Shown: in pieces, positions 9,341 through 17,174 of the stretch
How the letters are laid out: every line of letters starts with the position of its first letter
Position numbering within the stretch: the first letter of the stretch is position 1
Virus record (IMG/VR): IMGVR_UViG_3300025133_005418
Span: 1 to 38,146 of that record
Length of the DNA stretch: 38,146 bases
Direction: 5' to 3' (one strand)
Source of the DNA: a virus
The notes under the pieces: model-generated
The model's database searches: none
Told to the model about the DNA's origin: nothing
What the model saw: the letters and a program-made list of their open reading frames with translations, nothing else
Program-made: the position numbers and the translations under genes

Positions 9341-10075
9341 ATGTCAGATGAAATTAAAAAAACTGTAGACGAAGCTTTGGAGGATTTGTTCTCTAATGCT
9401 CATACTACGAACGAGCAGAGAGTTAAACTCCCTTCTAGAGGGATAGGGTACGCTGGGAAGAAGAAGGAGGTTACTATCAGGGCTATGACCTTCGAAGATG
9501 AAAAAGCTATAGCTTCTCTAAAGGTAGGGGACGATATAATAGAATCTATTCTCAGTAGATGTGTTTCTGATATAGATGTAGAGAATTTATATGGACCTGA
9601 CAAGCTATTTCTTCTTTTAAAACTTAGAGAAATTTCCTTCGGGGATGCTTTTAAGCTTACAGCTAAATGCCTAAAGTGTAAAACAGATAATGATTTAGAA
9701 ATTGAATTGTCTAAATTACCTGTTACAGAAGCCCCTGAAGATTTCTCCGATCCTAGAGAGATTGATCTGCCAGTTATTAATACTACTGCTATGGTGCGTC
9801 TTCCTAGGGCTGGAGATTCTGATTACTTAACTAACCATGATAAGATTTTAGACAACTTGTGGAGATTTGTTAAGAAGATCGGGGAGTATGAGGATCCTAA
9901 GGTTATTGTAAAAGCTATTAAAAAATTAAAAAGTGCTGATATCCGTACCATTATCAACGGGTTACTCATTAATGATTTTGGTATAAAGACTGAGGCATTA
10001 TTTTTGTGTTCCAAGTGTGGAGAGGAGAATAAAGTAAATGTCCCCATCTCAGACACTTTTTTTACAGTGAGCTAA
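9341..10075 (+). CDS. T4 gp26-like baseplate/tail-assembly protein
   Basis: The 244-residue product matches the T4 baseplate protein family that includes gp26 (208 residues in T4). An N-terminal helix is followed by KLPSRGIGYAG (29-39), then the helical EDEKAIASLKVGDDIIESIL (52-71). Two CxxC pairs follow: C110/C113 (CLKCKTDN) and C223/C226 (CSKCGEEN), likely one zinc-ribbon-type site. In related phages this gene precedes the tape measure and acts in baseplate hub or tail assembly. Just before the stop, the sequence reads ACT TTT TTT ACA, a U UUU UUU slippery site in the correct frame. A -1 slip would bypass the stop and add 65 residues, giving a product of about 306 residues. A Shine-Dalgarno AGAGAGG lies at 9326-9332. 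Confidence 0.85.
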   Translation: MSDEIKKTVDEALEDLFSNAHTTNEQRVKLPSRGIGYAGKKKEVTIRAMTFEDEKAIASLKVGDDIIESILSRCVSDIDVENLYGPDKLFLLLKLREISFGDAFKLTAKCLKCKTDNDLEIELSKLPVTEAPEDFSDPREIDLPVINTTAMVRLPRAGDSDYLTNHDKILDNLWRFVKKIGEYEDPKVIVKAIKKLKSADIRTIINGLLINDFGIKTEALFLCSKCGEENKVNVPISDTFFTVS

Positions 10076-10086
10076 CCGCTAGGCTC
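10057..10086 (+). promoter_or_regulatory. Candidate programmed -1 ribosomal frameshift site
   Basis: T TTT TTT occupies 10057-10063 in the X XXY YYZ register of the gp26-type gene. After a five-base spacer (10064-10068), GAGCTA (10069-10074) can pair with TA (10080-10081) and GCTC (10083-10086), with one bulged G and a five-base loop. The zero-frame stop (10073-10075) lies in the stem. The -1 frame is open from 10033 to a stop at 10258-10260. Confidence 0.65.
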
Positions 10087-10122
10087 GATCTAAAGGGCTT
10101 ATTTAGGGAGGCTTACACTCTT

Positions 10123-10260
10123 ATGAAGCATTTAAATTTTTCATATACCGATGTAAAGTCCATGACCTCTGATGAAAGGTACATTTTTATAAAAATGTAC
10201 ATGGAAGAGATGGAAAATGTTAAAAGAAATAGAGAGAATACAGGAACCTCACCTAAATAA
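10123..10260 (+). CDS. C-terminal extension of gp26-type protein by -1 frameshift, or separate 45-residue protein
   Basis: The reading frame is open from 10033 to 10260, and the first ATG is at 10123, giving 45 residues if translated alone. AGGGAGG at 10105-10111 could be its ribosome-binding site. The frame is exactly the -1 frame of the gp26-type gene at its slippery T7 run. The frameshift product would add 65 residues beginning YSELTARLD. The segment is helical, with a pattern FREAYTLMKHLNFSYTDV followed by MTSDERYIFI and an acidic helix YMEEMENV. Small helical proteins of this shape, encoded just before the tape measure gene or fused by frameshift, act as tail assembly chaperones in many phages; that role here is inferred. 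Either or both products may be made. Confidence 0.65.
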   Translation: MKHLNFSYTDVKSMTSDERYIFIKMYMEEMENVKRNRENTGTSPK

Positions 10261-10278: not shown

Positions 10279-11238
10279 ATGGGATCATTTCACAATATTA
10301 TTGTCTCAGAAAGACACCAAAGACCGTCTTTTAATGGTAGGACTATACTTAGGGCCAACTTTATGAGGGATGGGGGGTATGTATCCCTGGATAATTCTTC
10401 GGTTAGCTCTGTAATGTTATTTAAAAAACAGGCTAACACCTCCCCAAGTAGCATACTAGAAGCTTCTACTGGGTTAGTAACGGATACGGCTGCGGCTACA
10501 GCAATATGGAGATGGACTTTATCTGGTTGGGAAAATTTTAAGGCTAATCCCACACTAGACTTCCCAGTATTTCTCACAGAAGATGATTATGTTACCACTA
10601 AAGGACCCTCCACTAGTGGTATTTTTGAAGTCGCTCCAGGTAGGCTTGCTGTGGTATTGGACGGGACGCTAAATGGATCCTCTCTACTTAGGGATGGAAC
10701 CCTTATTGGTGCGGCAGGTAACTTGTCTGGGGAACCCGCAGCACAATACATAGATGTTTGGACTGTTAAACTGTGTGCTGGTTGTAAGTGGCAAACCTTC
10801 ATTAATGATACGCAATTCTTCCAAAATAATGCAGTCCTATTAACAGAACCTCTTTTACTTACAACTAAAGAAAGATTATATAATAAACGAATAGAAAAAG
10901 GGTCCATAGAAAAGATAAAGATTGGTACAGAAATAACTATAGAGAATAAGAATATCAGTGAATCTATAAAAAATGTATTAAGGGAGGGGTTAATAACTAC
11001 TGGAGCAATAGAAATAATTTATCATAATGAGGGTGATATTCATAGCCCCGCTTGGGATACTATAATTTCTTTTGCTGGCACAACTGGATTAGTAGAAATA
11101 ACAGAAGATAATACATTCATTTATACTTTTGATACTGATGTTACTACTGTCGTACCAGGAACCTATACTGTACAGTTAAAATATAATATTCTGGAAGAAA
11201 CTATATTATCACCCCTTATGTATTTTAAGGTAGTCTAA
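10279..11238 (+). CDS. Unknown protein, probable virion structural
   Basis: The 319-residue product is not recognised. It starts with a good ribosome-binding site (TAGGAGAG at about 10263-10270). The N-terminal two thirds is mixed beta with Ser/Gly-rich loops, including WRWTLSGWENFKANP (near 76-90) and CAGCKW (near 166-171), a CxxC. A basic, Lys-rich stretch (KERLYNKRIEKGSIEKIKIG, about 196-215) separates this from a C-terminal domain. That domain ends TYTVQLKYNI then LSPLMYFKVV, typical of an Ig-like or jelly-roll strand pattern. It lies between the gp26-type gene and two small membrane protein genes, with its stop overlapping the next start (TAATG). Composition suits a baseplate or fibre component; no function is shown. 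Confidence 0.6.
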   Translation: MGSFHNIIVSERHQRPSFNGRTILRANFMRDGGYVSLDNSSVSSVMLFKKQANTSPSSILEASTGLVTDTAAATAIWRWTLSGWENFKANPTLDFPVFLTEDDYVTTKGPSTSGIFEVAPGRLAVVLDGTLNGSSLLRDGTLIGAAGNLSGEPAAQYIDVWTVKLCAGCKWQTFINDTQFFQNNAVLLTEPLLLTTKERLYNKRIEKGSIEKIKIGTEITIENKNISESIKNVLREGLITTGAIEIIYHNEGDIHSPAWDTIISFAGTTGLVEITEDNTFIYTFDTDVTTVVPGTYTVQLKYNILEETILSPLMYFKVV

Positions 11239-11483
11239 TGGACGACGAAGACAATCATCGAAAAACGGTATTTGGGAAAGATACCCTAATACCGCTGGGA
11301 ATGGTCGTAGCCTTGTGTGGAGGTGTGGTCTGGATAAGTACCCAACTAACCAATATCAACTACAAACTTGATATGTTAGAGGGGAAGCTTGAAGATCAGT
11401 GGACCAAGAGAGATATGGAAAACTGGGGTCTTAAATTGCAGATGGGGAACCCCGAAATAAAAATTCCCAATTTAGAAAATTAA
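11238..11483 (+). CDS. Small membrane protein with N-terminal transmembrane helix and coiled coil
   Basis: The 81-residue protein has a charged N-terminus, one hydrophobic segment (LIPLGMVVALCGGVVWIS, about residues 17-34) and then a short coiled coil (INYKLDMLEGKLEDQW, about 39-54). A soluble tail with WTKRDMENW and a final NPEIKIPNLEN follows. This layout is common among small phage proteins near tail or lysis genes, where it fits an inner-membrane protein with a periplasmic helix. It starts on the stop of the previous gene (TAATG) and ends one base before the next small membrane protein. A lysis role (spanin- or holin-like) is possible but not shown by motifs. Confidence 0.65.
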   Translation: MDDEDNHRKTVFGKDTLIPLGMVVALCGGVVWISTQLTNINYKLDMLEGKLEDQWTKRDMENWGLKLQMGNPEIKIPNLEN

Positions 11484-11484
11484 C

Positions 11485-11727
11485 ATGAAATACTTAACGA
11501 AAGAAAATATTTTACTTGCTATGGTGGGATTTTTATTCCTTGTGCAGGTCAACGACATGAGAAAGGCCCGTGGACGCTCTGGGAGTCCCCGTGGCGCGAT
11601 TATGGAAAGGATGCGGGGTATGGACCGTGGAGACTGGGGAGCCCGTATGGAGGGAATGAGGAAGGCTAAGAAGGGCAAAGCAGAAAAGGTCGTTTTAAGC
11701 GAAGACTGCTGCGAAAAGAAAAGCTAA
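11485..11727 (+). CDS. Small membrane protein with basic Arg/Gly-rich tail
   Basis: The 80-residue product has an N-terminal hydrophobic helix (ILLAMVGFLFLVQV, about residues 9-22). A strongly basic, Arg/Gly/Met-rich segment (about 26-65) and a CC pair near the C-terminus follow. The DNA of the basic part is much more GC-rich than the surroundings: I counted about 57% G+C over 11581-11700 (68 of 120), against roughly a third in nearby AT-rich genes. It follows the previous membrane protein gene by one base and its stop overlaps the convergent primase stop (CTAA, 11724-11727). A membrane-anchored nucleic-acid- or envelope-binding protein, or a lysis accessory, are both possible. The family is not recognised. 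Confidence 0.55.
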   Translation: MKYLTKENILLAMVGFLFLVQVNDMRKARGRSGSPRGAIMERMRGMDRGDWGARMEGMRKAKKGKAEKVVLSEDCCEKKS

Positions 11728-13820: not shown

Positions 13821-14327
13821 ATGTCAACATCTTTGTCGAAAAAATTTTTAGCTTTCGCTGAAGCTGTCGCTAATAGCCTCACAGGGGGGGACGATGACGA
13901 AGATAAATCCTCAAAGGTTAGTAAGTCGAGTGTCTCCTCAGCCTCTATACTACCAGGGGATGTCCTATTTTTTTCCTATACTTCTAGAAAATTCAATGAT
14001 GGATCTCATTTGGTAATGGTGATAGGAAATGAGAGGGGGAGGTATGGTGTCTTCACTCATATGAATAAAACAGGTAAGGATAAGGGTAAGGCAAAACGGT
14101 ATTTATCTGCGATTAAACTAAATAATGTATGGAGTCAGACAGCAGGGATGATAATACAACTCTATAATAAAAGTATGGCAGACAGAGTAGAGGATGCTAA
14201 GTACACTAAAAAGCAGAGTAATAACTCTAAGAAGGGTTTAATGTCTCTAGTTGGTAGAAAGAACTACAGAACTTATATATTGAATAATATGACGAACACA
14301 TTTGAAGTAGAGAAAGGAGAAGCCTAA
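13821..14327 (+). CDS. Unknown protein with small beta-barrel-like core, first gene of tail operon
   Basis: The 168-residue product begins with a Ser/Asp-rich, probably disordered region (residues 1-42, with GGDDDEDKSS). A core starting ILPGDVLFFSYTS (about 43-55) and HLVMVIGNERG (about 62-72) follows, then GVFTHMN. PGDxxFF...VxxVIG is a pattern seen in small SH3-like or NlpC-like barrels, but the catalytic Cys-His of NlpC/P60 is not evident. A second half (KGLMSLVGRKNYRTYILNNM) is basic. It has the strongest ribosome-binding site in the window and overlaps the tape measure candidate (TAATG). Proteins of this type occur next to tape measures in T4-like phages, so a tail assembly or baseplate role is likely but not shown. 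Confidence 0.6.
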   Translation: MSTSLSKKFLAFAEAVANSLTGGDDDEDKSSKVSKSSVSSASILPGDVLFFSYTSRKFNDGSHLVMVIGNERGRYGVFTHMNKTGKDKGKAKRYLSAIKLNNVWSQTAGMIIQLYNKSMADRVEDAKYTKKQSNNSKKGLMSLVGRKNYRTYILNNMTNTFEVEKGEA

Positions 14328-16006
14328 TGCCACCTAAAGATTTAGCTGCTTTAGCAAAGTCCCTAGAAAAACTTAGTACCTCTATAGAGGAGCAGCAAGA
14401 AGCTTTGGGGGGTATTGCTAACTCTATGAAACCCCTTGCGATAGCTGGAGGTATTGTAACTAAAGGTATAGAGATGCTCATTGGTAGTGTTGTTGGTGGT
14501 ATGAAGACCTTAGCTGAAATGAGGATTCAGAATGCTGATCTCCTTGTTGATCAGAAAAAAATGAGGGATATTATCAAAGATCAAGGGTACAGTATAGGAA
14601 CTCTTGCCCAACACTCTCAGATGCAGTTAAACTTACACCGTATTGGATATAAGGAAATAAACAAAGATTTAAGAGAACAATTAGTTTGGTTAGAGAAACA
14701 AGGTGGTCAAGGTCAAGATGTGTTGAAGTTTATGTCTAGTATGAGTGAGAAGGGTGCTGACCTCAGGACACAAACTAAGATAGCCCAAAGGATTGTAGAT
14801 GTGGCACGATATACAGGACAATCAGCTAGAGCGGCTATTGGTTCGGCAGCACAGTTGGGAGATATGCAAACAGTTATGGCTGCAATAGGGCTTCAGGGTC
14901 CTGTTCTAGAGGCTCTTGTAACCGCTAGTGAAGATATGCCAGCACAACAGGCAATAGTTTTAGGCCAATTTGCAGAAGAGCTAGTTAACCCTAAGAATAT
15001 TGAGCAATCTATACTGCTTGGTATGCATCAAGGTGGAAAAGAATTCTTAAGACGAGATGCCACTGTTGATGAGAGAATAGATGCTTTATTTAGAACTGCG
15101 GAAATCGCAGGGGTTGCATCTGAAAACTACTTAAAATCGGCTAGGGAAGATCCAATTATTTTGAAGTTTCTCAGAGAAGACCTTGTTGGTCCGGGTGGTC
15201 TTTTATCTATACAAGTTAAGAACGCTAAAAAAATGAAAAAGGCTGGAGCGAATATTGGCACAGGGGCTGATAGTTTTAAAACTTCTACTGATGAGTATAT
15301 GGGCTCTTTCCTGAGGGTTGCTGAGACTTTGGAGGATGCGGGGCAAGTAGTAGCCTCAACATTCGAAGACGATCTATTAGGACCTAAGGGACTTATTAGT
15401 GATGTATTCCGTATAGCAAATCAGATTGGAGATATGATTCCAAGTTGGAATACTATAGCAGATGCCTTTATATGGATTGCTGGTCATCTGGGAGGGGCAC
15501 CATTGTCAAGATCGGAGTCTCAGGTAGCCCAAGCATATGGACTCTTTACCCGTGAAGGTTTAGATAAACAGGGGGGTACGGGTCTTGAACTTGGAACTAA
15601 AGAGGCCAGAAATTTTCAAAAAGCGTTCGCTGAAAGTATTATTACTGAGGCTATTGGTGAGGGCAGAGATGTAGGTAAGTATGCTTCTTGGAAAGCAAAT
15701 ATAGAAAAAATATATGAATGGCAACATAATAAAGCATCAAATAGGTATGAATTTGACAGAGGTATGATGGGGATAGATAGTATACTCATGAATAATAGAG
15801 CAGAGGAAATGCTGACTGACTTAAGCGACACTAATCCCCTTGCTAGGCTCATGGGCGTTGCTGTAGCTCACGGAATGAAGAATTATGCATCGCAACAGGA
15901 TAGATTACTGAATATTATGTGGGGAACTATGAAAGAGAAAAACAAGAATTTGGAGTTGTGGGAAAAAATAGAGCGCGGAGATTTTAGTGAGAGTTCAGTT
16001 AGATGA
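14327..16006 (+). CDS. Tail tape measure protein candidate, T4 gp29-like position
   Basis: The 559-residue protein is nearly all alpha-helical by composition. It has an N-terminal coiled coil (LAALAKSLEKLSTSIEEQQE) and a hydrophobic glycine-rich segment (GGIVTKGIEMLIGSVVGG, about 44-61). Alanine-rich helical stretches follow (GQSARAAIGSAAQLGDM; EALVTASEDMPAQQAIVLGQ) and a second weakly hydrophobic region (DAFIWIAGHLGG, near 383-394). Length is close to T4 gp29 (590), which sets tail length and sits inside the tube. If length scales as in T4, the tail would be similar. The position after the gp26-type and tail-operon start, and before the gp48/54-, gp53- and hub-type genes, fits. No enzymatic domain is seen. 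The call rests on composition, length and order rather than a signature motif. Confidence 0.65.
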   Translation: MPPKDLAALAKSLEKLSTSIEEQQEALGGIANSMKPLAIAGGIVTKGIEMLIGSVVGGMKTLAEMRIQNADLLVDQKKMRDIIKDQGYSIGTLAQHSQMQLNLHRIGYKEINKDLREQLVWLEKQGGQGQDVLKFMSSMSEKGADLRTQTKIAQRIVDVARYTGQSARAAIGSAAQLGDMQTVMAAIGLQGPVLEALVTASEDMPAQQAIVLGQFAEELVNPKNIEQSILLGMHQGGKEFLRRDATVDERIDALFRTAEIAGVASENYLKSAREDPIILKFLREDLVGPGGLLSIQVKNAKKMKKAGANIGTGADSFKTSTDEYMGSFLRVAETLEDAGQVVASTFEDDLLGPKGLISDVFRIANQIGDMIPSWNTIADAFIWIAGHLGGAPLSRSESQVAQAYGLFTREGLDKQGGTGLELGTKEARNFQKAFAESIITEAIGEGRDVGKYASWKANIEKIYEWQHNKASNRYEFDRGMMGIDSILMNNRAEEMLTDLSDTNPLARLMGVAVAHGMKNYASQQDRLLNIMWGTMKEKNKNLELWEKIERGDFSESSVR

Positions 16007-16854: not shown

Positions 16855-17174
16855 TGATTAAAATTGGCACATACCAATCTTATCCATCTAGATATGACTA
16901 CGGTGGCAAAACTATAACACATAAAGGGGTGCATGTCACTACTTCTATTAATACTGAAATAGAACAAGTTATAACTCAAATTCCTGGGGGTATCCCATAC
17001 CAAAAGGCACACTGTATTCCTACAGTAGAACATAGACCTGATAAAATATCTAATATCTTTTTTGATACTTCAGAATTTTGGTGGTATATTCAGTTATTTA
17101 ATAATATATCAGATCCTTTTGAAGGATTTAATTCTGGAGATAGAGTGCTAATACCTGTTGTGGAGGGTTTGTAG
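16854..17174 (+). CDS. Baseplate wedge protein, T4 gp53-like
   Basis: I set the start at ATG 16854 (TAATG with the previous stop) rather than at the upstream TTG at 16839. The 106-residue product has KISNIFFDTSEFWWYIQLFN, then NISDPFEGFNSGDRVLIPVV at the C-terminus. This is the WW...N.I.DPF...G..v.IP pattern of gp53 and of LysM-like tail proteins such as P2 gpX. In T4, gp53 locks wedges together around the hub; it is 196 residues there, so this is a shorter form, mainly the LysM-like domain. The gene lies between the junction and hub genes, as expected for baseplate assembly. Confidence is good for the family. Confidence 0.75.
   Translation: MIKIGTYQSYPSRYDYGGKTITHKGVHVTTSINTEIEQVITQIPGGIPYQKAHCIPTVEHRPDKISNIFFDTSEFWWYIQLFNNISDPFEGFNSGDRVLIPVVEGL

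Follow-up and report, generated by a model that had tools for sequence, protein, structure and literature searches.

The viral contig analyzed here (IMG/VR record IMGVR_UViG_3300025133_005418, 38,146 nt; hereafter the window) very probably encodes a tail assembly chaperone pair of the lambda G/GT type, belonging to a contractile-tail phage of the T4 superfamily, in which a gp26-family protein would be joined to a gp51-like extension by a -1 frameshift. This reading is based on a conserved slip signal, coding constraint in both frames, homology of the two parts with T4 gp26 and gp51, and a fold of the short protein that resembles known chaperones. We infer the slippage itself, its efficiency, and the chaperone role. 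Two isoforms, TAC-N and TAC-NC, are predicted from a single start; their lengths and the positions of all features are given in Table 1.

Table 1. Positions of the features of the putative chaperone locus in the window.
Feature	Position	Strand	Basis or remark
gp26-family protein, short chaperone isoform TAC-N, 244 aa	9341..10075	+	PF12322, phrog_150, model
Slippery heptamer T TTT TTT	10057..10063	+	sequence; T TTT TT[TC] in 68/68 distinct relatives
-1-frame extension, gp51-like domain, 65 aa after slip	10060..10260	+	phrog_634; dN/dS; AlphaFold
Stem proposed in the earlier note	10069..10086	+	probably not a functional stimulator; not MFE, no consensus pairs
Zero-frame stop TAA, short isoform	10073..10075	+	68/68 distinct relatives have a stop few codons from the slip
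Possible internal start	10105..10125	+	AGGGAGG 10105-10111, 11-nt spacer, ATG 10123, 45-aa product
Stop TAA of extension	10258-10260	+	ends the 306-aa fusion TAC-NC
Candidate tape measure protein, 559 aa, presumed chaperone client	14327..16006	+	sequence only

The slip site and the two predicted proteins of the window

The heptamer lies in the zero-frame register of the ATG at 9341, the sequence from 10055 to 10075 reading ACT TTT TTT ACA GTG AGC TAA in that frame. An earlier note on this DNA had placed the slip site in this register and had described the -1 frame as open across the junction and for 195 further bases, and both observations are confirmed. Its phrase that the heptamer sits six bases before the last sense codons is loose, as three sense codons (ACA GTG AGC) come straight after the T-run. 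No stop interrupts the -1 frame between 10033 and 10257; it extends 185 nt when counted from the first T of the zero-frame TAA and 195 nt when counted from the slip, and read from the TTT at 10060, its product is FYSELTARLDLKGLFREAYTLMKHLNFSYTDVKSMTSDERYIFIKMYMEEMENVKRNRENTGTSPK. When the 48 in-register slippery-type heptamers in the plus-strand genes of the window were compared, the -1 frame was open past the stop at two, this site and an overlap at GGGTTTG. The latter heptamer (17165-17174), also in register, lies seven bases short of the point where a gp53-like ORF stops; the ORF that follows is open in -1, and the overlap with its start makes GGGTTTG likely trivial. Rfam and tRNA scans of the window gave no matches, and no Shine-Dalgarno element upstream of the slip site was apparent by eye. 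The extension coding sequence also contains a perfect 22-base palindrome, GTACATTTTTATAAAAATGTAC (10179-10200).

The zero-frame protein matched PF12322 (T4_baseplate; family description, "T4 bacteriophage base plate protein") at 1e-17, with 65 bits against a curated cut-off of 24.5, and phrog_150 at 2.6e-23; by these profile matches, it is a homologue of T4 gp26. A Foldseek search of the PDB with its AlphaFold model (pLDDT 91.5) returned no significant match. With VIA-align, the top three of 461 PDB chains were YqbN (3KLU), HK97 gp13 (2OB9), and RBSTP2171 (3FGX), with Z values of 6.1, 5.9, and 5.4, respectively, followed by 3.1 in the next row; the matches spanned 82-93 residues, all inside gp26 residues 4-110. 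These three proteins have been described as phage tail assembly chaperones (PMC9603447). The modeled fold is most like that of the three solved tail assembly chaperones, a resemblance that is moderate at a Z of about 6.

The extension matched phrog_634 ("baseplate hub assembly catalyst", the T4 gp51 family) at 9.5e-6 over profile positions 62-114 of 121, and the extension of a relative (L004) matched the same profile at 5e-6. Since a direct hhalign comparison of the extension profile with T4 gp51 alone was weak (E 0.03), the link to gp51 rests on phrog_634. In the AlphaFold model (pLDDT 89), the extension forms a small helical domain; Foldseek against viral models gave a best E of 0.13, with P-HM1 Gp51 in third place, which is suggestive only. 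The bare extension is too short and too diverged to find a match by tblastn among isolated phages, so that profile searches were needed. T4 gp51 matched PF12322 at 4e-52, and BLASTP between gp26 and gp51 gave an E of 3e-6; phrog_150 aligned to residues 3-248 of gp51 and phrog_634 to residues 147-246. Judged by these alignments, T4 gp51 is a gp26 paralogue carrying the extension domain at its C-terminus. It joins both parts naturally in one reading frame, which is the kind of fusion that the earlier note had suggested looking for.

In the proposed mechanism, most ribosomes would read gp26 to the TAA at 10073 and produce the 244-residue TAC-N. A minority, with tRNA-Phe in both the P site and the A site at U UUU UUU, would shift back by one base at 10057-10063, continue in the -1 frame (F-F-Y-S-E-L...), and produce the 306-residue TAC-NC with its gp51-like helical domain. 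If the pair works as lambda gpG/gpGT does, the tape measure protein would be coated by many copies of the short form, the C-terminal domain of the rare fusion would recruit tube or hub subunits, and both forms would leave before the virion is complete. The candidate tape measure product has a helical or coiled N-terminus and a hydrophobic segment, and profile searches gave no family match for it. Its gene lies 4 kb downstream of gp26, from which it is separated by primase and exonuclease genes on the minus strand. The gp26/gp51 pair of SP-15, LIS04, and Immutovirus is immediately followed by the tape measure gene. The analogy with lambda G-GT drawn in the earlier note thus held for the chaperone-like fold and, in these three phages, for the position of the pair before the tape measure gene; in the window, the candidate is not adjacent. 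Between 7923 and 13775, minus-strand helicase, primase, and exonuclease genes flank the gp26/gp51 gene together with three short genes of the plus strand (10279-11727).

Conservation of the site and other explanations of the extension

A gp26-profile scan of viral contigs yielded 76 loci, and an independent extension-only scan yielded 60, in which gp26 was always immediately upstream with the same geometry. HMM placement located the extension in -1 at 123 loci (window included), in +1 at nine, and in frame or detached at none. Outside the +1 clade, every HMM-detected locus with a window-type extension (123/123) had the -1 geometry, and no in-frame fusion of gp26 and the extension was placed among the viral contigs.

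When the -1 loci were reduced to 68 distinct ones (<85% identity), the slip run T TTT TT[TC] was present in all of them, as T TTT TTT in 30 and as T TTT TTC in the rest; a locus scored as T TTC TTC reads AAT TTT TTC TTC and has T TTT TTC there too. Of the two Phe codons at the slip site, the first was TTT in 68/68, compared with 60% TTT elsewhere in the same genes, and the value for an all-TTT site by chance (0.6^68 = 5e-16) ignores relatedness and is not an exact probability. Other Phe-Phe pairs in the same genes had the form T TTT TTY in one of 21 cases. The -1-frame Leu codons overlapping the zero-frame stop were CTA or TTA (YTA) in 54 of 55, against a background of 46%, and it is through this biased choice that the zero-frame stop is kept. 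Among 76 unique sequences, the extension contained no stops in -1, compared with 6.1 and 3.9 per sequence in the other frames, and its median pairwise dN/dS was 0.26 in -1, compared with 0.84 and 2.1. These values show purifying selection on the extension in -1 and in neither of the other frames. The corresponding median for gp26 itself was 0.21; the relatives share descent, and all these conservation figures show strength, not exact probabilities.

A separate small gene downstream of gp26, translated by coupling from an internal start at ATG 10123 or at an upstream non-ATG codon, is a very unlikely source of the extension. In the window, the SD-like AGGGAGG stands 11 nt before this ATG; however, an ATG at that position was found in only 2/68 relatives, and any ATG with an SD-like match in only 17/68. 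No start is conserved, and seven of the 68 have no ATG within the first 40 codons. Short ORFs begun in this manner are listed in the records of P-HM2, syn9, C48C1, SP-15, and Atu_ph07, and Vibrio phage 1.255.O is an exception among the isolates (CTT TTT CGC TAATG), with a start codon overlapping the gp26 stop and a poor slip run. Nevertheless, protein-level constraint on the -1 frame reaches, in weaker form (dN/dS 0.43), into the codons ahead of this supposed start, and an internal start would leave the invariant T-run unexplained. T4 has the fused form, and the records of S-CAM1 and ACG-2014d lack gp51 though the -1 frame is intact.

The fusion is very unlikely to arise from transcriptional rather than ribosomal slippage on the T-run. 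The length of the run, seven T's here and up to eight among the relatives, would favor slippage by the polymerase, but about 38 of the 68 relatives have six T's and then C (T TTT TTC), and what is conserved is the register, not the run length. Bacterial RNA polymerase slippage usually needs longer runs. A further idea, that a homopolymer sequencing error broke a single continuous gene in two, could draw on the metagenomic origin of the contig and on how common T-run errors are. It is already refuted in practice by the same frame relation and run type, which recur in dozens of independent contigs as well as in the annotated genomes of isolates, and by the Leu codon choice that keeps the zero-frame stop.

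As to RNA signals that might assist the -1 frameshift, the stem with one bulge (GAGCUA/UAG-GCUC) that the earlier note had drawn 5 nt past the heptamer can be formed on paper. It is probably not a functional stimulator, as the minimum free energy (MFE) structure of the 47 nt that follow (-9.8 kcal/mol, z 0.11) is a different one, and RNAalifold predicted no pairs in an alignment of 23 relatives. A larger 97-nt fold in the window had a z of -2.18. Stimulatory RNA structures are common downstream of -1 slip sites, but such sites can do without them.

An element, GAAGCCTATATA, was observed at about +37 to +49 past the gp26 stop in 52/68 relatives (L025, L029, and 50 others) and is absent in the window. 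It stands at a fixed distance past the slip site and is kept far beyond codon bias: the E-A-Y-I codons 37-49 nt after the stop are mostly GAA GCC TAT ATA in these relatives, GCC, TAT, and ATA being 15%, 60%, and 23% of their synonyms. Synonymous divergence after the stop was 0.25 in codons 1-16 compared with 0.72 in codons 18-45. The element is not an obvious common promoter, because it is not enriched elsewhere in those loci, and no conserved complement that could pair with the GCCTATATA element was found within -500..+220.

Isolated phages, a probable +1 mode, and the history of the family

The -1 arrangement was found in the isolates XacN1, RAS14, PBECO4, GAP32, BF, XaC1, PA5oct, Atu_ph07, Phosso, and C48C1, as well as in S-PM2, P-HM2, syn9, S-CAM1, ACG-2014d, phi-Grn1, Mendera, and LG08; isolates with the -1 site include marine cyanophages, a KVP40-like vibriophage, and jumbo phages. 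A conserved slip run and an open -1 frame, which the earlier note had proposed to seek in homologues, are accordingly present from homologues of about 49% identity to distant isolates. A search with cyanophage-type gp26 matched 656 records, of which a sample was examined. In S-PM2, syn9, P-HM2, S-CAM1, and ACG-2014d, the extension lies in -1 behind the T TTT TTC of gp26. The isolate records draw gp51 as a separate short ORF or leave it out (S-CAM1, ACG-2014d), and no joined CDS for gp26 and the extension was present in the sampled phage records. At loci L161 (1914-2099) and L166 (1914-2102), from S-CAM1 and ACG-2014d, the extension is wholly unannotated with the -1 frame intact.

Cyanophage gp51 has been reported to have about 20% of the normal length, with the first ~200 residues missing (Sullivan 2010, PMC3037559). 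We attribute this shortness to the extension being encoded in -1 behind gp26, and the frameshift would account for the "missing 200 residues". The gp51 of cyanophages and marine vibriophages, termed a baseplate hub assembly catalyst (PMC3037559), is the same small domain as the extension; there, it is annotated as a separate short gene, whereas here it is read as a -1 extension of gp26. In the open literature, no paper linking cyanophage gp51 with a frameshift was found.

In SP-15, LIS04, GXN1, BRock, Immutovirus, Mel-JY01, and several contigs, the gp51-like ORF is in +1. TTT directly precedes CGN, CAC, or TGG in 13/17 of the +1 members; the Immutovirus site reads CTT TGG, and three (LIS04, L077, and LR756508) have no clear +1 site. 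The +1 loci are L008, L009, L010, L011, L071-L082, L146, and L153, most of them with TTT before CGN/CAC/TGG. This context suits P-site slippage from UUU to UUC or UUU and suggests that the +1 clade reaches the extension at the same Phe codons, by a second recoding mode within one family. Slippage by -2 on TTTTTT would result in the same frame, but the members reading TTC TTT CGT and CTG TTT CGC fit a +1 shift better.

In a maximum-likelihood tree of 49 gp26 sequences, in which the root placement is arbitrary and the deep branches are partly open, T4 gp26 and gp51 were placed together (97/88) inside a group otherwise made up entirely of members with the -1 signal, and three -1 groups were separate, with the +1 groups between them. 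The simplest reading of this tree suggests that T4 lost the frameshift after gene duplication. A more general proposal, to which we assign an even chance of being correct, is that the whole gp26/gp51 family is recoded as a rule. A single Phe-Phe site near the end of gp26 would serve for -1 shifts in three separate groups (the cyanophage and vibriophage relatives of T4, the Rak2-like jumbo phages, and the clade of the window) and for +1 shifts in others. T4 would then be the derived exception, its gp51 having arisen from a duplicated frameshifting gp26 by in-frame fusion, and the "truncated" gp51 of cyanophages would be an annotation artefact; in the wider clade of the window, frameshifting may be modulated by the 12-nt element, which stands about 55 nt downstream. 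Nearly all gp26-family phages examined carry the frameshift arrangement, which means that many phage records annotate gp51 wrongly or leave it out. As the rare-isoform domain of a tape measure chaperone, gp51 would gain a concrete candidate role.

Comparison with known tail assembly chaperones

Vladimirov, Gautam, and Davidson, writing in Virology (566:9) in 2022, are said to have named the T4-like tail assembly chaperones, and the title of their article reportedly proposes a mechanism other than frameshifting. The article has been credited with poly-T slip signals in the TAC-N genes of T4-like phages (PMC12846349) and with separate short and fused genes (PMC10885494); from homology, we infer that the genes meant are gp26 and gp51. 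The earlier note was aware of no frameshift described for this family. According to the papers that cite the 2022 article, proteins of T4-like phages, presumably gp26 and gp51, were already called tail assembly chaperones in that year (PMC10885494, PMC12846349), so the chaperone idea is not wholly new. The breadth of the arrangement, the -1/+1 split, and the derived state of T4 may be new.

The G-T frameshift is classical, and T4 has been named as an exception to it (Atkins 2016, PMC5009743). Both parts of the T4 system are homologous to those described here (PF12322 for the first, and the C-terminal end of gp51 for the extension). However, the short and long forms of T4 come from two separate genes on opposite strands, whereas a single gene with a -1 shift would provide both here, and T4 gp26 ends in TTC TTT GAG, without a slip run.

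In lambda G/GT and P2 E/E' (PMC5009743), the first ORF ends just past the heptamer and the -1 fusion adds a second domain, an arrangement that the window shares at the level of sequence. The products of those genes are non-virion chaperones of the tape measure protein, and the present pair would act likewise. No sequence relation is known between lambda G/GT or P2 E/E' and gp26, which differs from them in having about 240 residues and four conserved Cys in two CxxC pairs. In the Vandenendeviridae and Andersonviridae, the tail assembly chaperone is made with a -1 frameshift at GTTTTT, as described for phage Adele (PMC12846349). Compared by description, the Adele-type chaperone gene and the locus studied here both carry a T-rich -1 site that is conserved and stands ahead of the tape measure gene.
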